Below are positions 21,649 to 37,423 of a stretch of DNA of 64,000 nucleotides, one piece after another; within the stretch, counting starts at the first letter, position 1; each line of letters opens with the position of its first letter. The stretch spans positions 6,160,029 through 6,224,028 of the forward strand of contig NZ_CP007440.1 in NCBI RefSeq assembly GCF_001579845.1, in the 5' to 3' direction. The translations under genes and the position numbers were made by a program. The stretch is from Rhodoplanes sp. Z2-YC6860. GTDB taxonomy: Bacteria; Pseudomonadota; Alphaproteobacteria; Rhizobiales; Xanthobacteraceae. Under the pieces are notes generated by a model that ran no database searches, was not told the origin of the DNA, and was given only the letters and a program-made list of their open reading frames with translations.

Positions 21649-23295
21649 ATGCAACGCAAATTGATGTTGAGCATCACCGTCAGTGCAGCAGCGATGCTCT
21701 TCCATCCGACAATTCAAACGGCTTGGGCCCAAGGCCAGGCGGCGTTGACCGGCACGGTCAGCTCCGAGGCCGAAGGCAAGATGGAAGGTGTGGTTGTCAC
21801 CGCCCAGAAGCCGGGATCGATCGTGCGCATCAGCGTCACCACCGACAAACAAGGCCGCTACGCGTTCCCGGAAAATCGACTCGAGCCCGGTGACTACACC
21901 ATCACGATCCGTGCGGTCGGCTACGACATGGACGGCGCCACCAAGGCAACGGTCGAGACCGAGAAGACCGCAAACGCCGACATCAAGCTGAAGAAGACCA
22001 AAAACCTCGCAAGCCAGCTCACCAATGCCGAGTGGATGATGAGCATTCCCGGCACCGAGGCGCAGAAGGCGAACCTGCTCGATTGCAGCAGCTGCCACAC
22101 GATGGAGCGCATCATGCGCTCGACGCACGATGCTGACGAATGGACGCAGGTGATCACGCGCATGAAGGGCTACGGCGCGGTGAGCCAGCCGGTTAAGCCA
22201 CAGCCGATGCTGGACGCGAGCCGCTCGGGCACACCGGAGCAATACCGCAAGATGGCCGAGTATCTCGCGACCATCAATCTAAGCTCCAGCGACCACTGGA
22301 ATTACGAACTCCGCACGCTGCCGCGCCCGAAGGGCCGCGACACCCGCGCCATCGTCACCGAATACGACATGGTTCGTCCGACCACCGAGCCGCATGACAT
22401 CCTGCTCGATAAGGACGGCAACGTCTGGTACACGGACTTCGGCGAGATGTTCATCGGCAAGTTCAATCCGAAGACGCTGAAACTCACCGAGTATCCGATC
22501 AAGAAGTTCAAGGACAAGGCGCCGACCGGGCTGCTCAGCATCGATTTCGACCACACCGGCAAGATCTGGTTCGACACGATGTACCAGGGCGCTCTCGGCA
22601 ACCTGGATCCGAAGACCGGCGAGATCGCTTATCACCCGCTGCCGCCGGAATACAACGACGATCGCGTCCAACTCAACTTCACCGGACTGCGCTACGACGT
22701 CGACGGCAAGGTGTGGACCAAGAGCGTCGGTACGCAGGACATCTTCCGGCTCGATCTCGCGAGCAACAAGTGGGAGAAATTCCATCCGACCGACGAGTTG
22801 AAGTCGCCGGCCAGCATCTATCAGGTCATCTCGGACTCCAAGAATAACCTCTGGATGGCCGAGTTCACCGGCGGCCATCTCGGCAAGATCGATGCAAAGA
22901 CCCTGAAAGTGACCTGGTATCCCGTGCCCACGCCGTTCGCTCGGGCCCGCCGTATGGTCATCGACGATCAAGATCGCATCACGGTCACCGAATATCGCGG
23001 CAACCAGGTCGCGCAGTTCGACCCCAAGACTGAAAAATTCACCGAATACATGCTGCCGCCCTACACGTTCCCGTACCGCGCCAGCTTCGACAAGAACGGT
23101 GATATCTGGGCCTCGACCATGAGCACCGACCGCGTGGTGCGGGTCGACACCAAGACCGGTGCGTGGACGCAGTATCTGATGCCCACCGACACCAACATGC
23201 GCACGGTGTATGTCGATAACACGACGACACCGGTGACATTCTGGGTCGGCAGCAACCACGACCATCGGATCGTGAAGGTCGAACCGCTCGACTGA
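21649..23295 (+). CDS. periplasmic CnaB-like / CxxCH / Vgb-type beta-propeller fusion protein
   Basis: A 548-residue exported protein with three parts. After a signal peptide (ends TAWAQ), residues about 30-115 form a carboxypeptidase-regulatory (CnaB-like) beta domain (ALTGTVSSEAEGKMEGVVV, GRYAFPENRLEPGDYTITI). Residues about 120-210 contain DCSSCHTMERI, with a c-type heme motif at Cys146-x2-Cys149-His150. Residues about 225-548 are a six- or seven-bladed propeller with repeats such as DKDGNVWYTDFG and DSKNNLWMAEFTGG, as in virginiamycin B lyase (Vgb) and SMP-30/NHL proteins. A true lyase activity is doubtful; an electron-transfer-linked enzyme or sensor is more plausible. Confidence 0.8.
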   Translation: MQRKLMLSITVSAAAMLFHPTIQTAWAQGQAALTGTVSSEAEGKMEGVVVTAQKPGSIVRISVTTDKQGRYAFPENRLEPGDYTITIRAVGYDMDGATKATVETEKTANADIKLKKTKNLASQLTNAEWMMSIPGTEAQKANLLDCSSCHTMERIMRSTHDADEWTQVITRMKGYGAVSQPVKPQPMLDASRSGTPEQYRKMAEYLATINLSSSDHWNYELRTLPRPKGRDTRAIVTEYDMVRPTTEPHDILLDKDGNVWYTDFGEMFIGKFNPKTLKLTEYPIKKFKDKAPTGLLSIDFDHTGKIWFDTMYQGALGNLDPKTGEIAYHPLPPEYNDDRVQLNFTGLRYDVDGKVWTKSVGTQDIFRLDLASNKWEKFHPTDELKSPASIYQVISDSKNNLWMAEFTGGHLGKIDAKTLKVTWYPVPTPFARARRMVIDDQDRITVTEYRGNQVAQFDPKTEKFTEYMLPPYTFPYRASFDKNGDIWASTMSTDRVVRVDTKTGAWTQYLMPTDTNMRTVYVDNTTTPVTFWVGSNHDHRIVKVEPLD

Positions 23296-23310
23296 CGAGC
23301 GGACGGGCGA

Positions 23311-24930
23311 TCAGCCCACGGCGATTTGCTTCGGCGCGGCCGCTTCGGCGGCCGCGTTTGTTTTACCGGTGCGGTGGATGAAGTCGGGCAGCCCCTGCCC
23401 CATCGAGTGCTCGTAGCGGATTGCCGGTGCGCCGGCGTTGAACGGGATGTTCAAGGTCTTCCGCACGTCGCGTTCGACCATGTCGCGCAGGCTCACGAGT
23501 TGCTCGGCGCTGAGATGATCGGTGTAGACGAACGAGCGGTAGCCGCCGTTCGGATCGCCTTTGTAGTAGTCGGCACAGACCGTGTAGTCGACCTCGCGGG
23601 CATGCAGCCGGTCGCCGGTCTTCGGATGCGTGTAGGTCCACACATCGCGCTCGGTCGGATGCGGCACGGCGAGATCATAATACGGCGTGCCCGGATAGGT
23701 GGTGATCACGGTACAGTCGAAATCATCGACCCGGTTGCGGATGAGCCAGTCGCGGATCGCCGTGACGGTCTCCTCCGACTCGCCCGGATGGCCGCAGGAC
23801 ATCAGCGCCTTGACCTTCAGCCCGGCCTGCTTGGCGTAACCAACGCAGCGGTCGTTGTCGGCGAGCTTGGCGCGCTTGTCGATGTTGACCAGGATGCGCT
23901 CGTGGGCGGCCTCGAAGCCGCAAAGGAGCCAACGGAAGCCGGCGCGGCGCATGGCAATCGCCTGCTCCAAGGTGAACAGCTCCGACTTCACGAAGCCGCG
24001 CAGCCGGAATTCGGTGCCGAGCCGCGACTGCAGGTCGGAAAGCCCGTCCATCAGTTCGACAAAGCTCTTCGAGACATTGAGCTCGTCGTCATAGAACATG
24101 AAACCCGTGTAGCCGTGGTCGCGATGTAGGTTCTCGACCTCGAACAGGATTGACTCGACCGAGCGATTTCTGATCTGCCGCAGGCTCTTGGAGTTGCGGC
24201 CGCCGCAGAAACCGCAGCCGAACGGACAGCCCAACTGCGCAATCAAGCTCGTCGCACGGTGGCCTTCGATGCTGTAGTGGTACGACTTCAGGTCGACGAG
24301 ATGCCGCGCCGGCAGCGGGCTCTCGGTGAACATCGCGTCGGTGAGAAACAGCCCGCCCTTCGGATCGTCGCCGTCGATCACTTTCGGCGGGTCATCCTTC
24401 AGCGCCTCGAAGATCGCAAGCTCGCCGTCGCCGCTGCACAGCACGTCGAAGATGGCTTCGAGTTGCGCGGCAGAACGATGACCGCGGCCATTCAGCCCAT
24501 TGCGCTTCTTCTCGAGCTTCTGCGCCGAATAGATCAGCGTGACATGCGGCCCGCCGAGAATGAGCCGGAGATCGGGACGCAGCCGCCGGATGGTGTTGGC
24601 GATCTGGATGACCGCCGGCAATTGCGGAGTCGTTGCCGTGATGCCGATCGCCACGTCCTGGCAGCTCGCGAGATAGTCTTCGAGGGGGCTGAGAAAGTTC
24701 TCCACCCCGGACAGATCGAGCAGGTTCACCCGCCAGCGCTGTGCCTCGAGGCTCGCCGCGACCTTCAAAATTCCGAGGCTGACGAACACCCGCTCATCCA
24801 GCAAGAACGCCGATGGCGGCGTGACCAGGCAGATGGAGCGGGACCGGTCGGCGAGCACCCGCAACGCGTCGCGCACCGCGGGCTCGTTCCACTCGAGGGA
24901 GGTGCTCTGGCGGTGGTAAGGCGTGGTCAC
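23311..24930 (-). CDS. B12-binding-domain radical SAM protein
   Basis: A 539-residue protein (GTG start at 24930; a TTG at 24963 is an alternative). The N-terminal 200 residues resemble a cobalamin-binding Rossmann fold (SLGILKVAASLEAQ, VAIGITATTPQLPAVIQIANTI, LILGGPHVTL). The radical SAM core follows, with the 4Fe-4S motif Cys235-x3-Cys239-x2-Cys242 (CPFGCGFC) and then GFMFYDDELNV, FRWLLCGFEAAHERIL and VKALMSCGHPGESEET. Such B12-rSAM proteins catalyse methylations or ring rearrangements. The classical B12-ligating D-x-H-x-x-G is not evident, as in many family members. The gene is convergent with the propeller gene, 15 bp away. Confidence 0.85.
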   Translation of the reverse strand: MTTPYHRQSTSLEWNEPAVRDALRVLADRSRSICLVTPPSAFLLDERVFVSLGILKVAASLEAQRWRVNLLDLSGVENFLSPLEDYLASCQDVAIGITATTPQLPAVIQIANTIRRLRPDLRLILGGPHVTLIYSAQKLEKKRNGLNGRGHRSAAQLEAIFDVLCSGDGELAIFEALKDDPPKVIDGDDPKGGLFLTDAMFTESPLPARHLVDLKSYHYSIEGHRATSLIAQLGCPFGCGFCGGRNSKSLRQIRNRSVESILFEVENLHRDHGYTGFMFYDDELNVSKSFVELMDGLSDLQSRLGTEFRLRGFVKSELFTLEQAIAMRRAGFRWLLCGFEAAHERILVNIDKRAKLADNDRCVGYAKQAGLKVKALMSCGHPGESEETVTAIRDWLIRNRVDDFDCTVITTYPGTPYYDLAVPHPTERDVWTYTHPKTGDRLHAREVDYTVCADYYKGDPNGGYRSFVYTDHLSAEQLVSLRDMVERDVRKTLNIPFNAGAPAIRYEHSMGQGLPDFIHRTGKTNAAAEAAAPKQIAVG

Positions 24931-25046
24931 GCGGTATCGGGCCTTTCGCGGAAGACTGCCCAAGTTATTAATTTATTTGGTTAATTATCGTTTAAGCCGC
25001 CCGCCTCGTGGCTGCGCTGCCCATTTCTGCCGCTTTATTTTGCATC

Positions 25047-25061
25047 GCACAAATATCGTGC
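25047..25061 (+). promoter_or_regulatory. NtrC-type enhancer site
   Basis: GCAC-N7-GTGC (spacer AAATATC) matches the dyad of the NtrC consensus, with the correct 7-base spacing. It lies about 90 bp upstream of the sigma-54-like promoter of nasT, a normal enhancer distance. Confidence 0.65.
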
Positions 25062-25151
25062 AGCTGGGCGTCCGGAAGCGGACGACCGCAAGGTGCTGCA
25101 TTTTTGATCCAAGCCCTTCATTCCGCGAGGCAATCGCCCCGGCTGGGCGGT

Positions 25152-25166
25152 TGGCACGCTGCTTGA
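25152..25166 (+). promoter_or_regulatory. sigma-54 (-24/-12) promoter of nasT-nasS
   Basis: TGGCAC-N5-TTGA fits the RpoN consensus TGGCAC-N5-TTGC except for the last base. The -12 G is at 25165, which predicts transcription from about 25177, just before nasT. The same sequence context (TTGGCAC...GCTTGAAT) recurs before nrtA. Confidence 0.65.
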
Positions 25167-25199
25167 ATTTTATTCAACAGCCGGACTTGGACCCAATCT

Positions 25200-25784
25200 T
25201 TGGACCCCTCATTCAAGATCGTCATCGTCGACAAGAACCCGATCCGCGCCGCCATCCTGGAGGATGGGCTGCGGGAGGCCGGCCACGTGCAGGTGGTCCG
25301 GATCGACGAGACCTCGCATCTCCTCCAGCGCATCTACACCCTGGATCCCGACGTCATCCTGATCGACCTGGAGAATCCCTCCCGCGACGTACTCGAACAG
25401 ATGTTCCAGATGAGCCGCGTGGTGAAGCGGCCGATCGCGATGTTCGTCGACCAGAGCGATCGCGCCTCGATCGAGGCTGCCGTCGATGCAGGCGTGTCGG
25501 CCTACATCGTCGGCGGGCTTCGCAAGGAGCGGGTGCAGAACATCCTCGATCTCTGCATTTCCCGTTTCAACGCATTCTCGCGGCTCGAAAGCGAGCTCGA
25601 AAAGACGCGCTCGGCACTCGAAGAGCGCAAGGTGATCGACCGCGCCAAGGGCATCCTGATGAAGGCGAAGAACCTGACTGAAGAAACCGCCTACGCGCTG
25701 CTGCGCAAGACCGCGATGAACGAAAACAAGAAGATCGCCGAGGTCGCGCAGTCCGTGATCACGGCGGCGGAGTTGTTCAAATGA
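25200..25784 (+). CDS. nasT: NasT-type ANTAR-domain transcription antiterminator
   Basis: A 194-residue protein. Residues 5-120 form a response-regulator-like receiver (FKIVIVDKNPIRAAIL, DVILIDLENP). Residues about 130-190 are an ANTAR RNA-binding domain (LEERKVIDRAKGILMKAKNLTEETAYALLRKTAM). NasT binds paired hexaloop hairpins in leader RNA and prevents termination when nitrate relieves its inhibition by NasS. The start is TTG 25200, with no ATG upstream in frame. It overlaps nasS by 4 bp (ATGA), indicating translational coupling. The gene order here is T before S. Confidence 0.92.
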   Translation: MDPSFKIVIVDKNPIRAAILEDGLREAGHVQVVRIDETSHLLQRIYTLDPDVILIDLENPSRDVLEQMFQMSRVVKRPIAMFVDQSDRASIEAAVDAGVSAYIVGGLRKERVQNILDLCISRFNAFSRLESELEKTRSALEERKVIDRAKGILMKAKNLTEETAYALLRKTAMNENKKIAEVAQSVITAAELFK

Positions 25785-26974
25785 CCCCTGACAAGCTCGC
25801 TGCCGACAAGCGTCTGCGCATCGGCTTCATCCCGCTCTGCGACGCGACCGCTTTGCTGATCGCGGTCGACAAGGGCTTCACCGCAGCCGAAGGCCTCGAT
25901 GTCGAGCTGGTCCGCGAGGTGTCGTGGGCCAACATCCGCGACAAGCTCAACATCGGACTGTTCGACGCCGCGCATCTGATTGCGCCGATTGCGATCGCTT
26001 CGAGCCTCGGCCTCGGCCACGTCAAAGTGCCGATCGTTGCGCCGTTCGCGCTCGGCGTGAACGGCAACGCCATTACAGTGTCGCCTGCGCTCTATGCCTC
26101 GCTCGCGGCGGCCGCCGACGGCAACATTGGCGATCCGCTGGTCACCGCGAAAGCGCTGGCCAAGGTGGTCGCGACCCGCAAGCAGCGCGGCCAGGAGCCG
26201 CTCACCTTCGGCATGACGTTTCCGTTCTCCACGCACAATTATCACCTGCGCTTCTGGATGGCGGCGGGTGGCGTCGATCCGGACGAGGACGTGCGGCTCG
26301 TCGTGCTGCCGCCGCCCTACATGGTGGAGAGTCTCGCCAACCGGCACGTCGATGCCTTCTGCGTCGGCGCACCCTGGAATTCGGTGGCGGTCGATCTCGG
26401 CATCGGCTTCATCCTGCATTTCGTCTCGGATATTTTGCCGCGCGCGGCCGAGAAGGTGCTAGGCTTCCGCGGCCGCTGGGCACGCGAGAATCCGGAAATG
26501 CTGGCCGCGCTGGTGCGCGCCCATGCCAAGGCCGCCGATTTCGTCGAGGACCCGGCCAACCGCGACGAGGTCTGCGCTCTCCTCGCTCCGGCCAACCGCA
26601 TCGGCGTCGCGCCTGAAGTCCTTCGCCGCACCTTCGACGGCCGGCTCAAGGTCTCACCCGACGGCGCGACGCGCAGCGACCCCAACTACTTGCTGGTCGG
26701 CCGCGATGGCGCCGGACGGCCCGATCCGGCGCAGGCTGCGTGGCTCTATGCGCAGATGGTGCGCTGGGGTCAGGCGCCGTTCTCCGACGAGATGTGCCGC
26801 GCCGCCATGGCGGTGTTCCGGCCCGATCTCTATGACGATGCCACTATAGGAATGAACGGCCCGACCGCGAACGCGCCCGCGAGCATCGGCGCGTTTGCAG
26901 GACCGGTGTTCGATCCGCGCGACATCGCCGGACACCTCGCGGCGTGGCGGATCGGCCGGGTGCCGATCAGCTGA
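25781..26974 (+). CDS. nasS: NasS-type cytoplasmic nitrate/nitrite sensor
   Basis: A 397-residue homologue of the NrtA/CmpA nitrate-binding proteins but without a signal peptide (starts MTPDKLAADKRLRIGFIPL), the hallmark of NasS. Conserved features are FSTHNYHLRFWMAAGGVDPD, PPPYMVESLANRHVDAFCVGAPWN and GFRGRWARENPEM. It sequesters NasT in the absence of nitrate. It shares blocks such as AAGG-DPD, DAFCVG-PWN and TFP with the periplasmic NrtA encoded just downstream. The intergenic stretch after it (344 bp) contains the regulated nrtA leader. Confidence 0.9.
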   Translation: MTPDKLAADKRLRIGFIPLCDATALLIAVDKGFTAAEGLDVELVREVSWANIRDKLNIGLFDAAHLIAPIAIASSLGLGHVKVPIVAPFALGVNGNAITVSPALYASLAAAADGNIGDPLVTAKALAKVVATRKQRGQEPLTFGMTFPFSTHNYHLRFWMAAGGVDPDEDVRLVVLPPPYMVESLANRHVDAFCVGAPWNSVAVDLGIGFILHFVSDILPRAAEKVLGFRGRWARENPEMLAALVRAHAKAADFVEDPANRDEVCALLAPANRIGVAPEVLRRTFDGRLKVSPDGATRSDPNYLLVGRDGAGRPDPAQAAWLYAQMVRWGQAPFSDEMCRAAMAVFRPDLYDDATIGMNGPTANAPASIGAFAGPVFDPRDIAGHLAAWRIGRVPIS

Positions 26975-27125
26975 AAGCAGTCCTGCCTAAATATTGCGCT
27001 GCACAAAAAACCAACAAATTGCGATCGGCGACGGCCTCAAAAGCATTCAAAACAGGCCTGCTTCTTCGCTGTGCAGCCGCTCGTAATCCTCTGATCGGAT
27101 GATGCTTTTGGCGCTCAGCCCGGAT

Positions 27126-27140
27126 TGGCACAGCGCTTGA
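27126..27140 (+). promoter_or_regulatory. sigma-54 (-24/-12) promoter of nrtA
   Basis: TGGCAC-N5-TTGA at 27126-27140, near-identical to the element before nasT. It predicts a transcript start at about 27151, giving a leader of about 168 nt before the nrtA ATG. Upstream half-sites of the NtrC type (GCAC near 27001, GTGC near 27071) are weak. Confidence 0.6.
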
Positions 27141-27155
27141 ATAGGACCTTCCAGG

Positions 27156-27198
27156 ATACCGGTGCGCGAGCAGCGGTGTCAGGGTCCAACGAAGGGCC
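27156..27198 (+). promoter_or_regulatory. ANTAR (NasT)-type paired-hairpin leader RNA
   Basis: The first hairpin pairs 27156-27161 with 27174-27179 (ATACCG/CGGTGT) and closes on a TG-CGCGAG-CA tip. The second pairs GGTCC (27183-27187) with GGGCC (27194-27198) around a hexaloop AACGAA. Its loop has the A at position 1 and G at position 4 that ANTAR proteins require. The first loop has G4 but not A1. The terminator follows 10 bases downstream. Confidence 0.65.
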
Positions 27199-27208
27199 AC
27201 ATAGCAAC

Positions 27209-27255
27209 GCCGCTGTCCTGGGGAGGCTCTTCGCGCCTCGGGCTGCGGCTTTTTT
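27209..27255 (+). terminator. intrinsic terminator in the nrtA leader (attenuator)
   Basis: An outer stem GCCGC (27209-27213)/GCGGC (27245-27249) encloses an inner stem GAGGC (27223-27227)/GCCTC (27235-27239) with a 7-base loop. Six T residues follow (27250-27255). It lies 64 bases before the nrtA start codon, so it would stop transcription of the operon unless antitermination occurs. Confidence 0.75.
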
Positions 27256-27318
27256 GTTGGCTGAAACCGACACGTGCCGGCGCGTCGGCGACGGGAAACC
27301 AGAGAGGGCAACGAAGAC

Positions 27319-28635
27319 ATGACCAGCGACCGCCGAACCGGCAGCAAGACCATCAGCCGACGATCGTTCCTCAAAGCCAGCGCAGGCACCGCCGCGCTGC
27401 TCGGCGCTGTGCAAACGCAATATCCGTTCGGCGCCAACGTCGCGCAAGCGGCCGGACCGGAGGTCACCAAGGCTGTCCTCGGCTACATCGCGCTGATGGA
27501 TGCCTCGCCGCTGGTGATCGCCAAAGAGAAAGGATTCTTCGCCAAGCACGGCATGCCGGACGTCGAGGTCGCCAAGCAGGCCTCCTGGGGCGCGACACGC
27601 GACAACATCGTGCTCGGCTCCGCCAACAACGGCATCGATGGCGCACACATTCTCACGCCGATGCCCTACCTGATCTCAGCCGGCAAGGTGACGCAGAACA
27701 ACGTCCCGACGCCGATGTACATCCTGGCGCGGCTCAATCTCGACGCCCAGGCGATTTCGGTCGCCGGCGAATACAAGGATTTGAAAGTCACCGCCGACGC
27801 CTCGCCGCTGAAGGCCGCTTTCGAGAAGAAGAAGGCCGCCGGCAAGGAGGTCAAGATCGCCATGACTTTCCCCGGCGGCACGCACGACCTTTGGATCCGC
27901 TACTGGATCGCCGCCGGCGGCATCGATCCCGACAAGGACGTTTCGACCATCGTCGTGCCGCCGCCGCAGATGGTGGCGAACATGAAGGTCGGCAACATGG
28001 ACGCCTTCTGCGTCGGCGAGCCGTGGAACGAGCAGCTCGTCAACCAGGGCATCGGCTTCACCGCCTGTACCACCGGCGAGATCTGGTCGAAGCATCCCGA
28101 GAAGGCGCTCGGTCTGCGCGCCGAATGGGTCGACAAGAATCCGAACGCCGCGAAAGCGCTGCTGATGGCCGTGATGGAGGCCCAGCAGTGGTGCGAGAAG
28201 ATGGAGAACAAGGACGAGATGTCCGCCATCGTCGGCAAGCGGCAATGGTTCAACGTTCCGGTTGCCGACATCGTCGGCCGCGCCAAGGGCGACATCAATT
28301 ACGGCAACGGCCGCGTCGAGAAGGGCACCAAGCAATATATGAAATTCTGGAGCGAGCACGCCTCGTATCCGTTCAAGAGCCACGACACCTGGTTCGTTAC
28401 CGAGGATATCCGCTGGGGCAAGTTCGAGCCCACCACCGACGTCAAGGCGTTGGTCGACAAGGTCAACCGCGAGGACCTGTGGCGCACGGCCGCCAAGGAG
28501 CTGTCGATCGCGGCGACGGATATTCCGGCGTCGCCGTCGCGCGGCAAGGAGACCTTCTTCGACGGCAAGGTCTTCGATCCGGACAACCCGACGGCCTACC
28601 TCAAGAGCCTTTCCATCAAGCGTGTCGAGGTGTGA
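27319..28635 (+). CDS. nrtA: nitrate ABC transporter substrate-binding protein (Tat-exported)
   Basis: A 438-residue periplasmic protein with a twin-arginine signal peptide (SRRSFLKASAGTAAL). The mature part belongs to the NrtA/CmpA family: AKEKGFFAKHGMPDVEVAKQ, TFPGGTHDLWIRYWIAAGG, MDAFCVGEPWNEQL, GDINYGNGR. It captures nitrate or nitrite for the NrtBD importer. The frame is open upstream to 27274, but ATG 27319, before MTSDRRTG, fits the Tat signal. It is the first gene after the ANTAR leader and terminator. Confidence 0.92.
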   Translation: MTSDRRTGSKTISRRSFLKASAGTAALLGAVQTQYPFGANVAQAAGPEVTKAVLGYIALMDASPLVIAKEKGFFAKHGMPDVEVAKQASWGATRDNIVLGSANNGIDGAHILTPMPYLISAGKVTQNNVPTPMYILARLNLDAQAISVAGEYKDLKVTADASPLKAAFEKKKAAGKEVKIAMTFPGGTHDLWIRYWIAAGGIDPDKDVSTIVVPPPQMVANMKVGNMDAFCVGEPWNEQLVNQGIGFTACTTGEIWSKHPEKALGLRAEWVDKNPNAAKALLMAVMEAQQWCEKMENKDEMSAIVGKRQWFNVPVADIVGRAKGDINYGNGRVEKGTKQYMKFWSEHASYPFKSHDTWFVTEDIRWGKFEPTTDVKALVDKVNREDLWRTAAKELSIAATDIPASPSRGKETFFDGKVFDPDNPTAYLKSLSIKRVEV

Positions 28636-28694
28636 CGGCAATTGCGCGGGCCGCTTCGAAAGGAGCGGCCCTGCACTTCGGACGGAGAAAGTCG

Positions 28695-29594
28695 ATGAAC
28701 ATGCAGGCCGTTAAGACAGAAAGCGCAGCCGCAATCCCACTCGCCCCGGCCGGCGAAGTGCTGCGCCTGCCGGCGCCGAAAGCAAGCTATCTGAAAACCA
28801 AGCTGCTTCCGGCCGCGAAGGACATCGCCGCCAAGCTGATCCCGCCGCTCGTGATGATCGCACTGATCCTGCTGGTCTGGCAGATCCTCTGCTCGAAGCA
28901 GGGCGCGACGCTCCCCTCGCCGTCCAAGATCTGGAGCGAAGCCCGCGACCTGATCACCGATCCGTTCTTCGTCGCGGGTCCACAGGACATCGGGCTTGGC
29001 TGGCGCGTGCTGGTTTCGCTGCAGCGCGTCGCCATCGGCTACGGCTTCGCCGCGGTGATCGGCATCCTGCTCGGCGCTCTCGTCGGCCAGTCGGTCTGGG
29101 CGATGCGCGGGCTCGATCCGATCTTCCAGATCCTGCGCACCATCTCGCCGCTCGCCTGGCTGCCGATTTCGCTGGCCGCGTTCCGCGACAGCCAGCCGTC
29201 GGCGATCTTCGTGATCTTCATCACCGCGGTGTGGCCGATCATCATCAACACCGCGGTCGGCATCCGCAACATTCCGCAGGACTACCGCAACGTCGCCGCG
29301 GTGCTCCGGCTCAACCACTTCGAGTTCTTCGTCAAGGTGATGATCCCGTCGGCCGCGCCTTACATCTTCACGGGGCTGCGGATCGGCATCGGCCTGTCGT
29401 GGCTTGCCATCGTCGCGGCCGAAATGCTGACCGGCGGTGTCGGCATCGGCTTCTTCATCTGGGACGCGTGGAACTCCTCGCGGCTCTCCGACATCGTGGT
29501 CGCGCTGGCCTACATCGGCGGCATCGGCTTCGTGCTCGACCGCATCGTCGCCTTCGTCGCGACCATCGTCACCCGCGGCACGTCAGCCAATTAA
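28695..29594 (+). CDS. nrtB: nitrate ABC transporter permease
   Basis: A 299-residue inner-membrane permease of the BPD_transp_1 family with six or so helices (LIPPLVMIALILLVWQIL, VSLQRVAIGYGFAAVIGILLG, ISPLAWLPISLAAF). The cytoplasmic EAA loop reads YRNVAAVLRLNHFEFFVKVMIP-like, contacting the ATPase. CGGAGAAAG at 28683-28691 precedes ATG 28695. The C-terminus contains AEMLTGGVGIGFFIWDAWN, typical of NrtB. A longer frame running through from 27162 is a chance extension, because nrtA is read in another frame. Confidence 0.92.
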   Translation: MNMQAVKTESAAAIPLAPAGEVLRLPAPKASYLKTKLLPAAKDIAAKLIPPLVMIALILLVWQILCSKQGATLPSPSKIWSEARDLITDPFFVAGPQDIGLGWRVLVSLQRVAIGYGFAAVIGILLGALVGQSVWAMRGLDPIFQILRTISPLAWLPISLAAFRDSQPSAIFVIFITAVWPIIINTAVGIRNIPQDYRNVAAVLRLNHFEFFVKVMIPSAAPYIFTGLRIGIGLSWLAIVAAEMLTGGVGIGFFIWDAWNSSRLSDIVVALAYIGGIGFVLDRIVAFVATIVTRGTSAN

Positions 29595-29618
29595 TCCGGC
29601 CAATCGAGGACAACAGCG

Positions 29619-30419
29619 ATGCCGACCTATCCGTATCTCAAGATCGATCACGTCGACAAAAGCTTCAAGCGCGGCTCCGCCACGACCGAGGTATTGAAGG
29701 ACGTCACGCTCGCCGTCGAGAAGGGCGAGTTCGTCTCGATCATCGGCCACTCCGGCTGCGGCAAGAGCACTCTGCTCAATCTGGTGGCCGGCCTCCTGCC
29801 GGTCTCGGCCGGCTGCGTGCTCCTCGAGAACAAGGAGGTCAACGAGCCTGGCCCGGATCGCGCCGTGGTGTTCCAGAACCACTCGCTGCTGCCGTGGCTC
29901 ACGGTCTACGCCAACGTCAAGATTGCGGTCGACAAGGTGTTCTCTTCGACCAAGTCGAAGCAGGAGCGCCACGACTGGATCATGCACAATCTCGATCTCG
30001 TGCAGATGGGCCACGCCAAAGACAAGCGGCCGTCGGAAATTTCCGGCGGCATGAAGCAGCGCGTTGGCATCGCCCGCGCGCTGGCGATGGAGCCGAAGGT
30101 GCTCCTCCTCGACGAGCCGTTCGGCGCGCTCGATGCGCTCACGCGGGCGCATCTGCAGGACTCGGTGATGGCGATCCATGCCAAGCTCGGAAACACCGTG
30201 CTGATGATCACCCATGACGTCGACGAAGCGGTGCTGCTCTCCGATCGCATTGTGATGATGACCAATGGTCCCGCGGCGCATATCGGCGAGATCCTCGACG
30301 TGCCGCTCCCCCGGCCGCGCAAGCGTCTGACACTGGCCGGCGACGCCGCCTACGTGAAATCCCGCCAGCGGGTGTTGGAATTTCTGTACGAGCGCCATCA
30401 CTACGTCGAGGCGGCCTAA
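29619..30419 (+). CDS. nrtD: nitrate ABC transporter ATP-binding protein
   Basis: A 266-residue ABC ATPase with Walker [10 protein letters not shown] (43-51), Q-loop [12 protein letters not shown], signature ISGGMKQRV, Walker [16 protein letters not shown] and switch His in ITHDVDEAV. It lacks the C-terminal NrtA-like domain of cyanobacterial NrtC and so matches NrtD. Its gene follows nrtB by 24 bp and precedes the flavoreductase gene by 5 bp, indicating a single operon for nitrate uptake and reduction. Confidence 0.92.
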
Positions 30420-30424
30420 AGCGC

Positions 30425-32032
30425 ATGAACGCCCCGATCCGTCCGCCGCTGTCGTCGATCGTGCCGCAAAGCGCGCCGTTCAGCGCCGAGCAGCGCGGTT
30501 GGCTGGGCGACTTCTTCGCGGGCCTTCTGGACGCGGACTCGGTGGCTGCGTCGCCGCAGAGCGCTTCGACGTCGATGCCTGGCGAAAAAATGGGCGACGC
30601 GGAGAACGACGGCGCGCCGTGGCACGACCTCACCATGCCGCTTGCCGAGCGCATGAAGCTTGCCGAGGGCAAGGCGCTCAACCGCCGGATGATGGCTGCC
30701 ATGGGTCAGCAGGACTGCGGCCAATGCGGTTATGACTGCGCACGATATGCCGACGCGATCTTCAGCAAGAACGAAGAACGCCTGAACCTCTGCGTGCCGG
30801 GTGGTAAGGAAACCACCCGGATGCTGAAGTCGCTCTATGCTGAGATCGGTTCGGCTCCGGTCTCAGAAGCCAAGTCTGAGATCAAGATTGAAGCGCCGCT
30901 GGCGGTGAGGCCCGAACGCACTCCGGGTTCCCGCGACAACCCGGCGATGGCCACCTTCGTCTCGCGCACGCGTCTCAACAAGAAAGGCTCGGCGAAAGAG
31001 ACCTGGCATGTCGAGTTCGATCTCTCCGAAAGCAATCTCGATTACACGGTCGGCGATGCCTTCGGCCTGTTTCCCACCAACGATCCCGGGCTGGTCGAGG
31101 CCGTGCTCCAGGCACTCGACGCGCCGGCGGATTTCCCGATCGGCGGGCGCACGCTGCGCGAGGTGCTGACCGACGGCGTGTCGCTGTCGCCGGCCCCCGA
31201 CATGCTGTTCCAGCTGTTCTCCTACATCACCGGCGGCGACCGCCGGAAGAAGGCCCAGGCGCTGGCCGCGGGCGAAGACCCCGATGGCGACGCGGCGACC
31301 CTCGACGTGCTCGCCGCGATCGAGAAATTCCGCGGCGTGCGACCTGACCCCGAGGCGTTGGTTGAAGCGCTCGATCCGTTGCAGCCGCGGCTCTACTCGA
31401 TCTCGTCGTCGCCCAAGGCCATCAAGGGGCGCGTCTCGCTCACCGTCGATGCGGTGCGCTACGACGTCAACAAGCGCACCCGGCTCGGCGTCGCCTCGAC
31501 CTTCCTTGCCGGACGCATTAATCCTGGCGGCAAGCTCCGTGTCTATGTGCAGAAGGCGCACGCCTTCAGCCTCCCCGCCGATCCAAAGGCGCCGATCATC
31601 ATGATCGGGCCCGGCACCGGCGTCGCGCCATTCCGCGCCTTCCTGCAGGAGCGGATGGCCACCAAAGCACCCGGAAAGAACTGGCTGTTCTTCGGCCATC
31701 AGAAGCGCGACTTCGATTTCTTCTATGAGGACGAGCTCAACGGCATGAAGGCCGCGGGCGTGCTCACACGGCTCTCGCTCGCCTGGTCGCGCGACGGAGA
31801 CGAGAAGTTCTACGTCCAGGACCGCATGCTGCAGGCTGGCCGCGAGGTCTGGACCTGGATCGCCGACGGCGCCCACATCTATGTCTGCGGCGATGCTCAG
31901 CGCATGGCGAAGGACGTCGAGCGCGCGCTGATCGACATCGTCGCCACACACGGCGCGCGCACCACCAATGAAGCCGTTCACTTCATCGCCGAGTTGAAGA
32001 AGGCCGGGCGCTATCAGGCGGACGTCTACTGA
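30425..32032 (+). CDS. 4Fe-4S/FAD/NADPH reductase (CysJ-like flavoprotein), probable electron donor to NasC
   Basis: A 535-residue protein. Residues about 90-125 hold a 4Fe-4S motif, Cys98-x2-Cys101-x3-Cys105-x17-Cys123 (DCGQCGYDC...LNLC). Residues about 160-535 are a CysJ/P450-reductase-type FAD and NADPH module: PRLYSISSSP, IGPGTGVAPFRAFLQER, YVCGDAQRMAKDVE and the C-terminal RYQADVY. The flavodoxin (FMN) domain of normal CysJ is absent and the Fe-S module takes its place. It starts 5 bp after nrtD and ends 2 bp before nasC, so it most likely passes NADPH electrons to nitrate reductase, and perhaps to a nitrite reductase encoded elsewhere. Confidence 0.85.
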   Translation: MNAPIRPPLSSIVPQSAPFSAEQRGWLGDFFAGLLDADSVAASPQSASTSMPGEKMGDAENDGAPWHDLTMPLAERMKLAEGKALNRRMMAAMGQQDCGQCGYDCARYADAIFSKNEERLNLCVPGGKETTRMLKSLYAEIGSAPVSEAKSEIKIEAPLAVRPERTPGSRDNPAMATFVSRTRLNKKGSAKETWHVEFDLSESNLDYTVGDAFGLFPTNDPGLVEAVLQALDAPADFPIGGRTLREVLTDGVSLSPAPDMLFQLFSYITGGDRRKKAQALAAGEDPDGDAATLDVLAAIEKFRGVRPDPEALVEALDPLQPRLYSISSSPKAIKGRVSLTVDAVRYDVNKRTRLGVASTFLAGRINPGGKLRVYVQKAHAFSLPADPKAPIIMIGPGTGVAPFRAFLQERMATKAPGKNWLFFGHQKRDFDFFYEDELNGMKAAGVLTRLSLAWSRDGDEKFYVQDRMLQAGREVWTWIADGAHIYVCGDAQRMAKDVERALIDIVATHGARTTNEAVHFIAELKKAGRYQADVY

Positions 32033-32034
32033 TC

Positions 32035-34701
32035 ATGCACGCGCCGGTCCCACTCCCGCCTCCCGTCCGCACCGCCTGCCCGTATTGCGGCGTCGGCTGC
32101 GGCGTGCTGGCGCGGCCGGATGGCTCGGGCGGCGCGATCACCACCGGCGATCCCGATCATCCGGCGAATTCGGGACGGCTCTGTTCGAAGGGCTTTGCGC
32201 TGGAAGAGACGCTTGGCCTCCGCGGCCGGCTCCTTCATCCGATGCTGCGTCGCGCCGACAAGAGCTACGCGGAGGTCGATTGGGACACGGCAACCGCAGC
32301 GGTCGCCGATGGCTTCCGCAAAGTCATCGATCGGCATGGCCCCGGCGCGGGCGCGTTCTATCTTTCGGGTCAGTTGCTGACCGAGGACTATTACGTCGCG
32401 AACAAGCTCGCCAAAGGCTTCCTCGGCACCGCCAACGTCGACACCAATTCGCGGCTTTGCATGGCATCGACGGTAGCCGGCCATCGTCGCGCCTTCGGCG
32501 AGGACGTCGTACCGGGAAGCTACGAAGACCTCGACCAGGCGAACCTCGTGGTGCTGGTCGGCTCCAACACGGCCTGGTGCCATCCGGTGCTGTTCCAGCG
32601 CATCGCGCGGAACCGCAAGGAGCGCAGCGCCAGAATCGTGGTGATCGATCCGCGCCGCACCGTGACCGGCGACGAGGCCGATCTTTTTCTGGCCATCGCA
32701 CCCGGCAGCGACACCGCATTGTTCTCGGGCCTCCTTGTGTATCTCGCCGAGGTCGGCGCGCTCGACCAGCGTTATATCGACGCTCATACGAATGGCTTTG
32801 CCGAGGCGCTGATGCGCGCGAGAGAGATCGCGCCCGACGCGGCAGCGACCGCCGCGGCCACCGGCCTCGACGAGGGCGAGATCGCGCAGTTCTTCCAGCT
32901 TTTTCGCTCCAAGGAAAAGGTCGTCACCTGCTTCTCGCAAGGGGTGAACCAGTCGGCGCAGGGCACCGACAAGGTCAACGCCATCATCAATTGCCATCTC
33001 GCCACCGGCCGCATCGGCAAGCCCGGCATGGGGCCGTTCTCGCTGACCGGCCAGCCCAACGCGATGGGCGGACGCGAGGTTGGCGGCCTCGCCAACATGC
33101 TTGCGGCGCACATGGGCTTCGCACCTGACGAGGTCGATCGGGTGCGCCGGTTCTGGAACGCGCCACGCATGGCCGAGCGCGAGGGACTCAAGGCCGTGCA
33201 GATGTTCGAGGCCATCGAACGGGGCGAGATCAAGGCGCTGTGGGTGATGGCCACGAACCCCGCGGTGTCGCTGCCGCGCGCCGGAGCGATGGGAGAGGCA
33301 TTGAACAAGCTCGACCTGTTCGTCGTGTCTGAGAACATGTTGAGCAACGACACGGTGTCGGCTGCGCCGCACGTGCTCCTGCCCGCCGCCGCGTGGGGCG
33401 AGAAGGACGGCACGGTGACCAATTCCGAACGGCGCATCAGCCGGCAGCGCGCTTTCCTGCCAATGCCCGAAGAGGTGAAGCCCGACTGGTGGATCATCGC
33501 GCAGGTGGCGCGGCAACTCGGTTATGGCGACGCGTTTTCCTATCGCAACGCCGCCGGGATCTTCCGCGAGCACGCGGCGCTGTCCGCGTTCGAGAATGAC
33601 GGCGCCCGCGTCTTCGACCTCGGCGGGCTTTCGAATGCGCCCGACGAGGACTACGACGCGTTGGAGCCGGTGCAATGGCCGGTGCGCGCGAGCCAAACCG
33701 TCGGGACCGAACGGCTGTTTGCCGACGGGCAGTTCAGCACTCCGGATCGGAAGGCGCGTTTCATCGCGCCCGAGCGCCCGGCGCTCCGCGAAGACATCAG
33801 CGCCGATTTTCCGCTGCGGCTCAACACCGGGCGATTGCGCGATCAGTGGCACACCATGACGCGTTCAGGGCAAAGCCCGAGGCTCGGCTCGCACAAGCCC
33901 GAGCCCTTCGCGGAGATCCATCCGCTCGATGCCAAGATTTATGGCCTGAGCAACGGCGGCTTCGTCCGTGTCCACAGCCGGCATGGATCGTGCTTGCTCA
34001 AGGTCGTGACCAGCGCCGGCCAGCAACGCGGCTCGATCTTTGCGCCGATCCATTGGAGCGCAGCCAACGCGTCGTGCGCTCGTGTCGGCGATCTGGTGGC
34101 CCCGGAAACCGATCCGTTCTCCGGGCAGCCGGAGGCCAAGGCCACGCCCGTCGCCGTGGAGCGTGTGGATTTCACCTATCGCGGCTTTGCGCTGTCGCGC
34201 GAGGCACTGCCCTTCCCGCGCGACAGCTGGTGGATCGAACTCGCTTTGCCCGACATCACCGGCTACGCCTTCGCCAGCAACGACGCCCCAGCCGCATGGC
34301 GCGAGCTCGCGCCGAACCTTTTTCCCGACGCGACGCTGACCGAGTATGTCGACCGGCGGCGCGGCATCTATCGCGCCGCAGCTTTCAACGGCGAACAGCT
34401 CGAAGGCGCGCTGTTCCTGGGGCCCGCTGAAGCGCCACCGCAATGGCGCGAGCTCGGCCAAATGACCGGCCGTATGGGACTGAGCGAGCCTGGGCAGATC
34501 GTCTGCGCCTGTTTCAGCGTCGGCCTTTCCGCCATTCAGGAAACGCTTGCATCTGGCAAGGCGGCCACCGCCGCTGAGATCGGCAAGGCGCTTCGCGCCG
34601 GCACCAAGTGCGGCACGTGCCTGCCGGAAATCGAAAGCATCGCCACTCACGAACTCAATGCGAAGAAACCGAGCAACCTCGAAGGAGCGTTTCTCCGATG
34701 A
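32035..34701 (+). CDS. nasC: assimilatory nitrate reductase catalytic subunit
   Basis: An 888-residue molybdopterin enzyme of the NasA/NasC type. The N-terminal 4Fe-4S ligands are Cys15, Cys18, Cys22 and Cys50 (CPYCGVGC...GRLCSKG). The Mo-ligating Cys is at 142 in NSRLCMAS. FSQGVNQSAQGTDK and GRLRDQWHTMTRSG are conserved in nitrate reductases. A C-terminal BFD-like [2Fe-2S] domain has Cys824, Cys826, Cys859 and Cys862 (CACFSVG...KCGTC). No signal peptide is present, so it is cytoplasmic. It overlaps the CysG-like gene by 4 bp (ATGA). Confidence 0.95.
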   Translation: MHAPVPLPPPVRTACPYCGVGCGVLARPDGSGGAITTGDPDHPANSGRLCSKGFALEETLGLRGRLLHPMLRRADKSYAEVDWDTATAAVADGFRKVIDRHGPGAGAFYLSGQLLTEDYYVANKLAKGFLGTANVDTNSRLCMASTVAGHRRAFGEDVVPGSYEDLDQANLVVLVGSNTAWCHPVLFQRIARNRKERSARIVVIDPRRTVTGDEADLFLAIAPGSDTALFSGLLVYLAEVGALDQRYIDAHTNGFAEALMRAREIAPDAAATAAATGLDEGEIAQFFQLFRSKEKVVTCFSQGVNQSAQGTDKVNAIINCHLATGRIGKPGMGPFSLTGQPNAMGGREVGGLANMLAAHMGFAPDEVDRVRRFWNAPRMAEREGLKAVQMFEAIERGEIKALWVMATNPAVSLPRAGAMGEALNKLDLFVVSENMLSNDTVSAAPHVLLPAAAWGEKDGTVTNSERRISRQRAFLPMPEEVKPDWWIIAQVARQLGYGDAFSYRNAAGIFREHAALSAFENDGARVFDLGGLSNAPDEDYDALEPVQWPVRASQTVGTERLFADGQFSTPDRKARFIAPERPALREDISADFPLRLNTGRLRDQWHTMTRSGQSPRLGSHKPEPFAEIHPLDAKIYGLSNGGFVRVHSRHGSCLLKVVTSAGQQRGSIFAPIHWSAANASCARVGDLVAPETDPFSGQPEAKATPVAVERVDFTYRGFALSREALPFPRDSWWIELALPDITGYAFASNDAPAAWRELAPNLFPDATLTEYVDRRRGIYRAAAFNGEQLEGALFLGPAEAPPQWRELGQMTGRMGLSEPGQIVCACFSVGLSAIQETLASGKAATAAEIGKALRAGTKCGTCLPEIESIATHELNAKKPSNLEGAFLR

Positions 34702-35789
34702 CCGCCACACTGACGACGCATGCAATTCCTCACACACCGCCGGCGCGCATGGAGCCGCTGGCACGGCTGCCGGTGTTCTTCGCGCTGGAAGGCCGCCGCG
34801 CCCTGGTCGCCGGCGGCACGCAAGGCGCAGCCTGGAAGGCGGAGCTTCTGTCAGCCGCAGGCGCCGAGGTCTCGGTCTATGCGCCGGAAACCTGCGATCA
34901 CATCGTGGCGCTCGCGATCGATCCGCCGCAGGGCACCGTCACCATCCAGCGCCGCGCCTGGACGCCGGCGGACATGGCCGGCATGGCGATCGCGGTCGGC
35001 GCCTTCGACAATGACGAGGACGCGCGGCGCTTCTCCGACGCCGCACGCGCGGCCGGTGTTCCGGTCAACGTCGTCGACAATCCGAAATTCTGCGACTTCT
35101 CGTTCGGCGCCATCGTCAACCGTTCGCCGCTCGTGATCGGCATCTCCACCGACGGCGCGTCACCGGTGTTCGGCCAGGCCATCCGCGGCAAGCTCGAAAC
35201 CTTGATCCCGCGAGGCTTTGCCCGCTGGGCCGAGATGGCGCGGCGCTGGCGTTCCGATCTCAAGGCCACCGGTCTGTCGTTCAACGCCAAGCGGCGGTTC
35301 TGGCAGTTGTTCACCGAGCGCGCCGTGAAGCACCCTGACGCGGAGCCAGAGGGCTCCGACTATGACCTCCTGCTCGAGCAGACTCGGACCGAGGGCGAGC
35401 GCGTCGAACACGGCACCGTCACGCTGGTGGGCGCCGGCCCCGGCGATCCGGAGCTCCTGACGCTGCGCGCGATGCGCGCGCTGCAGTCGGCCGACGTGAT
35501 CCTGTTCGACGAACGGGTGTCTATGGAGACGCTGGATTTCGCGCGGCGCGAAGCGAAGAAGCTTCTGGTTGGCAGGGCTGGTGACGATGTCGCCGAACTG
35601 ATGGTCGGACTCGCCAAGGCCGGCCGCCGCGTGGTGCGGCTCAGCGGCGCGGACGTTATGAACAATACGGATGATGTGCTTGCGGGCTGCAGGAAGGCCG
35701 GCATCGCTATCGAAGTGGTGCCGGGCGTCACGTCTGCCGGTCTGAAGGAAACGCCGCAAGCCGGCAGCGCCGAAACCCGCGTGGCGTAA
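34698..35789 (+). CDS. CysG-like siroheme synthase with a short methyltransferase domain
   Basis: A 363-residue protein. Residues about 20-190 resemble the precorrin-2 dehydrogenase/ferrochelatase half of CysG (LEGRRALVAGGTQGAAWKAELL, NVVDNPKFCDFSFGAIVNRSPL, ISTDGASPVFGQAIRGKLE). Residues about 235-355 begin a uroporphyrinogen-III methyltransferase domain (VTLVGAGPGDPELLTLRAMRAL, ADVILFDERVS). The similarity stops shortly after EVVPGVTS, so roughly the C-terminal half of the usual SUMT domain is missing. Siroheme is needed by nitrite and sulfite reductases, which explains its place after nasC. It may act only as a dehydrogenase; SUMT activity is doubtful. Confidence 0.8.
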   Translation: MTATLTTHAIPHTPPARMEPLARLPVFFALEGRRALVAGGTQGAAWKAELLSAAGAEVSVYAPETCDHIVALAIDPPQGTVTIQRRAWTPADMAGMAIAVGAFDNDEDARRFSDAARAAGVPVNVVDNPKFCDFSFGAIVNRSPLVIGISTDGASPVFGQAIRGKLETLIPRGFARWAEMARRWRSDLKATGLSFNAKRRFWQLFTERAVKHPDAEPEGSDYDLLLEQTRTEGERVEHGTVTLVGAGPGDPELLTLRAMRALQSADVILFDERVSMETLDFARREAKKLLVGRAGDDVAELMVGLAKAGRRVVRLSGADVMNNTDDVLAGCRKAGIAIEVVPGVTSAGLKETPQAGSAETRVA

Positions 35790-35792
35790 GCA

Positions 35793-36572
35793 CTATTCGG
35801 CCGGTTTGGCTTCCTTGGCCTCGAGGCCCAGCACCTTCAGGATTTCGTCCTGGATCGGCTGGCGACCGGTGGTGCGCGCAGCTTCATCAAGCCGCGTCTC
35901 GTAGGCGATGCGCGCTGGGCGGTGAAACACCATCACACGGTCGCCGATGTCCATCGCCTCGTTGATGTGATGGGTGATGAACACCGCGGTCTTGCCGTTC
36001 TGCTTCACGAGGCGGACGAACTCGGCGCGCAGGTCGCGCGCGGTCATCTCGTCGAGCGCCGAGAATGGTTCGTCGCAGAGCAGGATATCCGGTTCGACCG
36101 CAAAGGCCCGCGCGATCGAAACGCGCTGGCGCATGCCGCCCGACAGCGCATGCGGCCAGTCGTTCTCGTGACCCGACAGGCCGAGCCGCGCCAGCCAGCG
36201 CTTGGCGATCGCCACGGCGTCGCTGTGCTTCCGATCGAGGATTTCGAGCCCGAGCACAACGTTGTCGAGCGCCGAGCGCCACGGCATCAGCCGGTCGTTC
36301 TGGAACACGATTCCGATCTTGCCACGGAAGAAATTGAACTCCCGGAACGGATCGTGGCCAGTGACGCTCACCGTGCCGCTGGTCGGCTCGATCAGACCCG
36401 AAAGCAGGTTGAACATCGTCGACTTGCCGCAGCCGGTCTTGCCCAGCACCGCGATGATCTCGCCCTTGTCGATGGTAAAGGACAGCTTGTCGACGGCCGT
36501 GAACGTCCCCGAGCCGTCCGGCTTGGTGAAGTCCTTCGAGACGTTGTCGAAGCGGATCAGCGGTTCGGCCAT
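35793..36572 (-). CDS. ABC transporter ATP-binding protein (SsuB/TauB-like)
   Basis: A 259-residue ABC ATPase with Walker A GKTGCGKST (44-52), FQNDRLMPWRSALDNV, signature LSGGMRQRV, Walker B ILLCDEPFSALDEMT and switch ITHHINEAMD. It groups with NitT/TauT-type importers for sulfonates, thiamine precursors or aromatic carboxylates. It is the last gene of a minus-strand set whose permease and binding protein lie upstream. A 49-bp palindromic repeat separates it from the permease gene. It ends 3 bp from the convergent CysG-like gene. Confidence 0.9.
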   Translation of the reverse strand: MAEPLIRFDNVSKDFTKPDGSGTFTAVDKLSFTIDKGEIIAVLGKTGCGKSTMFNLLSGLIEPTSGTVSVTGHDPFREFNFFRGKIGIVFQNDRLMPWRSALDNVVLGLEILDRKHSDAVAIAKRWLARLGLSGHENDWPHALSGGMRQRVSIARAFAVEPDILLCDEPFSALDEMTARDLRAEFVRLVKQNGKTAVFITHHINEAMDIGDRVMVFHRPARIAYETRLDEAARTTGRQPIQDEILKVLGLEAKEAKPAE

Positions 36573-36586
36573 AGAGCTTTCTCATT

Positions 36587-36635
36587 GAGCATGATCTTGT
36601 CCGAAAACCGGTTCCCACTTTTCGGGATCATGCTC
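36587..36635. repeat. 49-bp palindromic intergenic repeat (REP-like)
   Basis: Perfect 10-base terminal arms (GAGCATGATC/GATCATGCTC) flank a second inner dyad (CCGAAAA/TTTTCGG). A very similar sequence is widespread between genes in Bradyrhizobium and Rhodopseudomonas genomes, from general knowledge. Here it sits inside an operon, between permease and ATPase genes. Confidence 0.85.
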
Positions 36636-36636
36636 G

Positions 36637-37410: not shown

Positions 37411-37423
37411 CGGCGCGAAGATA

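Follow-up and report, generated by a model that had tools for sequence, protein, structure and literature searches.

A sigma-54-type promoter element and an ANTAR-type antitermination leader before the nrtA operon of Rhodoplanes sp. Z2-YC6860: probable serial control by nitrogen status and nitrate

The nitrate assimilation locus

The window analysed here, a stretch of 64,000 nucleotides from the 8.19 Mb genome of Rhodoplanes sp. Z2-YC6860 (contig NZ_CP007440.1, forward-strand positions 6,160,029 to 6,224,028), carries on its plus strand the gene series nasT-nasS-nrtA-nrtB-nrtC-flavoprotein-nitrate reductase-cysG (Table 1). NasT combines a receiver with an ANTAR domain and is the sole ANTAR match in the genome (E-value up to 0.001), and the adjacent gene specifies the NrtA-like protein NasS; this is the make-up of a NasS-NasT pair, in which NasS is taken by homology as the nitrate/nitrite sensor. 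A sigma-54-type element with an enhancer-like site upstream of it stands before both nasT and nrtA, and the leader of nrtA holds a tandem of ANTAR-type hairpins that runs into an intrinsic terminator. We propose, with a probability of roughly 0.87, that the nrtA operon is under serial two-signal control, whereby an NtrC/sigma-54 promoter is followed by a NasST antitermination leader.

Table 1. Genes and regulatory features of the locus (positions are those of the window)
Feature	Coordinates	Strand	Basis or remark
Enhancer-like site before nasT, TTGCATCGCACAAATATCGTGCA	25040..25062	+	Holds GCAC-N7-GTGC; putative NtrC site
Sigma-54-type element of nasTS, TGGCACGCTGCTTGAA	25152..25167	+	TGGCAC-N5-TTGA match
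nasT	25200..25784	+	Receiver and ANTAR domains; Pfam PF03861 80.0 bits, PF00072 35.9 bits
nasS	25781..26974	+	NMT1_2 (NrtA-like) protein; directly after nasT
Enhancer-like site before nrtA, TTGCGCTGCACAA	26994..27006	+	TTGCRNYGCACAA match
Sigma-54-type element of nrtA operon, TGGCACAGCGCTTGAA	27126..27141	+	TGGCAC-N5-TTGA match
P0, extra 5' hairpin	27155..27180	+	Folding; 7+3 bp stem, GCGA tetraloop
P1, ANTAR hairpin GGTCC-AACGAA-GGGCC	27183..27198	+	A1/G4 hexaloop; alignment pairing
P2, ANTAR hairpin ATAGC-AACGCC-GCTGT	27201..27216	+	A1/G4 hexaloop; overlaps terminator
Intrinsic terminator GCCGC...GCGGC, then T6	27209..27255	+	Folding, alignment
nrtA	27319..28635	+	Nitrate ATP-binding cassette (ABC) transporter binding protein, twin-arginine (Tat) signal; nitrate assignment from neighbours and relatives
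nrtB	28695..29594	+	Nitrate ABC permease; TIGR01183 309.5 bits
nrtC/D	29619..30419	+	Nitrate ABC ATPase; TIGR01184 341.5 bits
Flavoprotein, sulfite-reductase-alpha type	30425..32032	+	NF004859 866.2 bits; probable electron donor
Assimilatory nitrate reductase, NasC/NasA type	32035..34701	+	Pfam molybdopterin and BFD domains
cysG-type siroheme synthase	34698..35789	+	Domain and family matches

The leader of the nrtA operon

The nrtA transcript would start near 27152. The lowest-energy fold of its leader consists of P0, P1 and the terminator, and beats each of 200 shuffled sequences (z -2.86). P1 and P2 are separated by only 2 nt, and both have a hexaloop with A at the first and G at the fourth position (A1/G4) closed by a C-G pair, the arrangement of a two-hairpin ANTAR target. 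P2 shares five bases (27209-27213) with the 5' arm of the terminator. P1, P2 and their relation to the terminator, which excludes P2 and is excluded by it, are thus plain in both the sequence and the folding. The first-pass annotation of this DNA had already noticed the AACGAA hairpin and the six-T terminator, both of which are recovered here; it had coupled P1 to the preceding CGCGAG hairpin, our P0, and had not noticed P2, and on this count it has to be corrected, as the ANTAR pair is P1 and P2. Forcing P2 to form costs 7.3 kcal/mol in the window (mean 7.6 across the leaders folded), which may be read as the price that binding of NasT would have to pay. An Rfam search of positions 22000-38000 returned no match at the leader, even at E-values up to 5, and a search of the genome with the bare two-hairpin motif pattern was uninformative (14 matches against 12 for the control).

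For comparison we fetched relatives by NasT, keeping the best 80 of 244; the nearest among these are metagenome-assembled genomes labelled Xanthobacteraceae, Rhodoplanes and similar. The locus set with nasS numbers 79, the window included (L034 and L042, with no nasS match, stand outside it). Of the 63 leaders, 34 have a tandem of hairpins with A1/G4 hexaloops, against 0.35 expected, and the P2 loop begins with A in 57 of the 60 leaders that have a GC-loop-GC pattern, a pattern that itself fixes G4. We aligned 44 of the 63 leaders, chosen for P2 (left out were seven without the P2 pattern, ten Bradyrhizobium-type leaders, L006 and L007). In this alignment P1 is paired in 96.3% of cells and P2 in 100% (together 97.7%), sliding the partner drops whole-structure pairing to 28-54%, and a GC stem followed by a T-run comes after P2 in the window and the 43 other leaders. 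A run of at least five T follows P2 in 48 of the 60 leaders. We folded 48 leaders, a set that omits L077, the Bradyrhizobium-type leaders and any in which the P2 pattern of this search was missing, with L028 and L030 ended early at an internal T-run; in 43 of these 48 the minimum-energy structure has the G4 of P2 paired to the terminator.

Searched with a covariance model of the leader, the source genome gives a single strong match, the nrtA leader itself (77.2 bits, the next at 16.3), and hence no second strong target. In the family the model has matches at E-values of 0.05 or less in 48 of the 80 genomes and 29 of the 41 genera. Nine leaders from genomes with Rhodopseudomonas titles score 22.9 to 53.9 bits and keep the order of element, hairpins and terminator, with TGCACA visible by eye upstream.

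Some further properties of the leaders may be recorded. P0 is kept in form across relatives, and neither in sequence nor in loop; we considered its CAGCGG as an alternative antiterminator pairing with CCGCTG, and dropped it as the sequence is not kept in relatives (by eye). GTTGC or GTTGG often follows the T-run of the terminator (27256-27261 in the window, and relatives; by eye) and might be able to base-pair with GCAAC in P2. Bradyrhizobium-type loci (L061, L070, L072 and others) keep P2 as CAGC-AACGAA-GCTG without the five-T run, and in the folds of L061, L070 and L072 the predicted partner of the AACGAA loop is a TTCGTT further downstream. This suggests that the Bradyrhizobium-type leaders may use another mechanism.

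The promoter elements and upstream sites

The pattern TGGCAC-N5-TTGA, which the first-pass annotation had pointed out before nasT and nrtA, has exactly these two matches in the window, both on the gene strand, against 0.10 expected; none of 100 shuffles has two. The excess in the window disappears once a mismatch is tolerated (the same two matches against 3.25 expected when one is allowed). Genome-wide there are 14 matches versus four for the reversed control pattern, and of the 12 outside the window seven fall within long open reading frames (ORFs), one has no nearby ORF and four precede ORFs, glnK-amtB being among these four. After nasS, TGGCA[CT]-N5-TTG[AT] is found in 63 of the 79 loci and TGGCAY-N5-TCGC[AT] in nine more, which bear Rhodopseudomonas titles; the other seven (L002, L020, L050 at a contig end, L064, L073, L075 and L076) have neither form. 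In nine close relatives (L001-L007, L034, L042) TGGCAC-N5-TTGA lies 31-33 bp before nasT. Measured from the T of TGGCAC to the start codon, this spacing predicts a 5' leader of about 5-7 nt, so the nasT mRNA of these relatives would be almost leaderless; in the window itself the spacer is longer (48 bp) and nasT begins with TTG.

Upstream of the elements we found a second conserved feature. TTGCRNYGCACAA has exactly two matches in the window, at 25040 ahead of the nasT element and at 26994 ahead of that of nrtA, with 0.06 expected; the pattern was drawn up from relatives and these two sites before counting, so the count was not blind. The GCAC-N7-GTGC dyad that had been noted about 90 bp before the first element is indeed present at 25047 and falls inside the first TTGCRNYGCACAA site, but taken alone it is within chance (two matches versus 2.32 expected). 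The site before nrtA had been overlooked. The two putative NtrC sites lie 106 bp (nasT) and 126 bp (nrtA) upstream of their elements; measured against a TGC-N11-GCA dyad, the nasT site reads CGC-N11-GCA and the nrtA site has the left half only. Among relatives we searched 60-170 bp upstream in 72 of the 79 loci, leaving out the seven without an element: 52 of the 72 have TGCACA at a distance of 98-127 bp from the element, where shuffling gives 3.83. In 43 loci it lies at 120-127 bp and in eight at 110-114 bp, two groups about one helical turn apart. Such spacing would be as expected of an enhancer for a sigma-54 activator, and at many sigma-54 promoters the activator site is described about 70-150 bp upstream in the available text of PMC3844500. 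The activator is presumably NtrC. The genome encodes one RpoN, a clear NtrC (729 bits) and three further near-full-length NtrC-like activators that score under the family cut-off. Element, upstream site and hairpins recur together in relatives, the conservation that had been named as a check on the first-pass annotation.

Both elements have the GG expected at -24, within TGGCAC, and read GA where sigma-54 promoters have GC at -12. The earlier annotation had entered this as a caveat, which loses force in the light of the relatives. Among the 63 TGGCAY-N5-TTG elements of nas/nir loci, 34 have A and 29 have T at -12, and none has C; the nine further nas/nir elements keep GC, within TCGC. In the loci of leaders found by the covariance model, which overlap the first locus set and are not independent of it, 27 of 29 have an element (TTGAA 20, TTGTA 5, TTGAT 1, TCGCA 1); another such locus, L174, has TCGCT. 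The variant extends to glnK-amtB, a classic NtrC target: the source genome has TGGCACGCTGTTTGAT 113 bp upstream of glnK (L102, G000:C1:238196), and the family glnK-amtB elements, of the form TGGCA-N6-TTGA, have A at -12 in 27 of 27 (22 TTGAT). These come from 41 genomes searched, which gave 30 amtB loci (L124-L153), one without a recognised glnK and two without an element; for L129 the chosen glnK is possibly the wrong copy, and TTGAT stands before another. Outside the family, where eight of 29 loci had a recognised glnK, six elements have a mixed -12 base (A 3, C 2, G 1; the filter of this class-wide check favoured A or C), and we therefore do not claim A at -12 beyond the family.

By contrast, the nirB promoter of the source genome reads TTGCA, and candidate nasT promoters of the form TGGAAY-N5-TTGC[AT] are found upstream of nasT in 24 of 81 loci. 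A or T at -12 looks like a conserved habit of the NtrC-type promoters here, and the variant does not weigh heavily against sigma-54. Hence we file the nas and nrtA elements as sigma-54-like, a probable variant. It is conceivable, though we hold it as a tentative idea that may well prove wrong, that the NtrC-activated sigma-54 promoters of the family form a subclass, comprising glnK-amtB and the nas/nir leaders, in which A or T replaces C at -12, with nirB and the 24 nasT candidates keeping TTGC. We did not find a conserved A or T at -12 stated in the portions of the literature that our search reached, which is not proof of its being unreported.

A model of serial control and its alternatives

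These features suggest the following sequence of events. Under nitrogen shortage, phosphorylated NtrC would bind the TTGCRNYGCACAA sites and activate the sigma-54 RNA polymerase at 25152 for nasTS and at 27126 for the nrtA operon, as the conserved sites imply. The nrtA transcript would start and fold first into P0 and then into P1. Without nitrate, by homology, NasS would hold NasT, the terminator would form and transcription would stop. With nitrate or nitrite, NasS would free NasT, which would bind P1 and P2; as P2 takes five bases of its 5' arm, the terminator could not form, and nrtABC and the genes for the flavoprotein, nitrate reductase and CysG would be transcribed. The two-layer control put forward in the first-pass annotation is well supported by conservation in its outline, though not in its choice of hairpin pair, nor in its omission of the upstream site of nrtA. 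The placing of both signals in one leader is also to be revised: the promoter would respond to nitrogen status and the leader to nitrate, the signals acting in series.

Several observations weigh against this model. Covariation, which had been proposed as a check on the hairpins, is modest: pairing of P1 and P2 is kept, but compensatory changes are few. P1 has two pairs changed on both sides (four cells). Among 500 shuffles, 27 give as many double-changed pairs and 38 reach the covariation score. In the same 44 leaders two of the three P2 pairs counted are invariant and the terminator stem is without any double change; the P1 loop has A1 and G4 in 35, G1 and G4 in six and fewer than six bases in three. 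P2 is short, with a fourth pair in 39 of 60 leaders and a fifth in 19. Twelve of the 60, namely the ten Bradyrhizobium-type leaders, L006 and L007, lack a run of at least five T after P2. Lastly, the right half of the upstream site of nrtA in the window is degenerate (by eye).

The missing five-T runs would suit a leader that acts by translation or by Rho-dependent termination in place of an intrinsic terminator; given the GC stem and T-run that follow P2 throughout the alignment, we regard this as the least probable of the alternatives. Slightly less remote, and still highly improbable, is the idea that NasT binds P0 together with the AACGAA hairpin, the pair of the first-pass annotation, and that P2 is accidental. 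P0 is a hairpin in most of the leaders folded (z below -1 in 37 of 48, below -2 in 15 of 48), yet it has a tetraloop in the window, differs in sequence and loop among relatives, and in L021 and L080 its stretch shrinks to 9 and 2 nt, respectively; the near-constant A1 of the P2 loop, in a pattern where G4 is already required, also speaks for P2.

The remaining alternative concerns the promoter: the elements might not be NtrC/sigma-54 promoters at all, and the nrtA operon might have a different promoter or depend on read-through out of nasTS. The GA at -12, the predicted status of the start site, and the presence within long ORFs of seven of the 12 TGGCAC-N5-TTGA matches outside the window are consistent with this. 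Against it, 72 of the 79 loci retain TGGCAY followed by TTG or TCGC, 52 of these with the upstream TGCACA, and the TTGA variant also stands before glnK-amtB. The table of a Salmonella sigma-54 chromatin immunoprecipitation-microarray (ChIP-chip) study, in the part available, includes TTGTA and TTGAT sites and, at glnA, TCGCT (PMC3844500); and in rpoN mutants of one Bradyrhizobium nasA, nirA and nrtA are described as repressed, though the nrtA site predicted in that paper differs in sequence (PMC13207237). We consider such an account very unlikely, and retain the NtrC/sigma-54 promoter followed by the NasST leader.

nirB as a possible second target

Outside the window, TGGCACAGCGATTGCA stands 192 bp ahead of the start codon of nirB in the source genome (L097, G000:C1:2073757-2073949). 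Within 80 bases of this element lie CGGTC-AATGAC-GACTG and GGCC-AAAGCT-GGCC, both A1/G4 and C-G closed; the hairpin-pair rule, set after seeing the nirB leader, is matched by none of 5000 shuffles and by three of 1330 window tiles. Hence nirB may possibly be a second NasT target in the same genome. Speaking against this, the first hairpin is missing from the minimum-energy structure of the nirB leader, there is no evident U-tract terminator, and the leader covariance model does not detect the nirB leader.

As for the genes of the window, the nitrate reductase scores 432.2 bits with NF047855, under that model's cut-off, and its top NCBIfam match is formate dehydrogenase alpha, likewise under the cut-off.

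Relation to known systems

Antitermination by ANTAR proteins via two A1/G4 hairpins, the second overlapping the terminator, is established in the available text of PMC3369931 and PMC7496416, and the same holds for the regulation of nas and nos leaders by NasT (PMC5424462, PMC6759348) and of nasT by NtrC (PMC5424462, PMC8443478). As both layers are already established, the combination of promoter and leader belongs to a known kind. A close likeness in arrangement is described for Paracoccus denitrificans, with nasTS upstream, a hairpin leader of about 200 bp before the nas genes and an NtrC-type site before nasT that is needed there for induction; in the same account the NtrC site at nasA remained unidentified (PMC5424462). 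Unlike in P. denitrificans, both transcription units are here preceded by a sigma-54-type element and an upstream site. In Klebsiella, nasF likewise has an NtrC/sigma-54 promoter before its leader. That leader also has P1-P2 hairpins with A1/G4 hexaloops and a terminator, but NasR is a one-component nitrate sensor, whereas here sensing would fall to the separate NasS (PMC3369931, PMC7496416, as far as available). Bradyrhizobium diazoefficiens nosR, nirA and narK share NasT, hairpin leaders and the nitrate response; nasST-nirA is there described as separate from nrt/narK-nasC (PMC6759348, PMC4724949), unlike in the window, where nasTS directly precedes nrtABC and the nitrate reductase gene. For gammaproteobacteria the likeness is one of description and not of leader comparison. 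Azotobacter vinelandii nasAB is reportedly under NasT antitermination, a finding said to come from Wang in 2012. In Pseudomonas stutzeri, nas and nasT expression is described as NtrC-dependent (PMC8443478, available text).

Significance

The less expected parts of the present picture are the conserved A or T at -12 and the possible second target nirB. Such elements of two NtrC-type operons in the family would escape a scan that demands the strict sigma-54 consensus, because the textbook GC at -12 is absent from them (the TCGC form excepted). If the tentative subclass is real, the altered -12 box could set how tightly the closed complex is gripped by sigma-54, and so the ranking or silence of NtrC-type promoters. 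The corrected hairpin pair tells which bases NasT should bind, and the comparative anatomy over 72 loci points to a scheme in which a sigma-54-type promoter set ahead of an ANTAR leader would integrate nitrogen shortage with nitrate.

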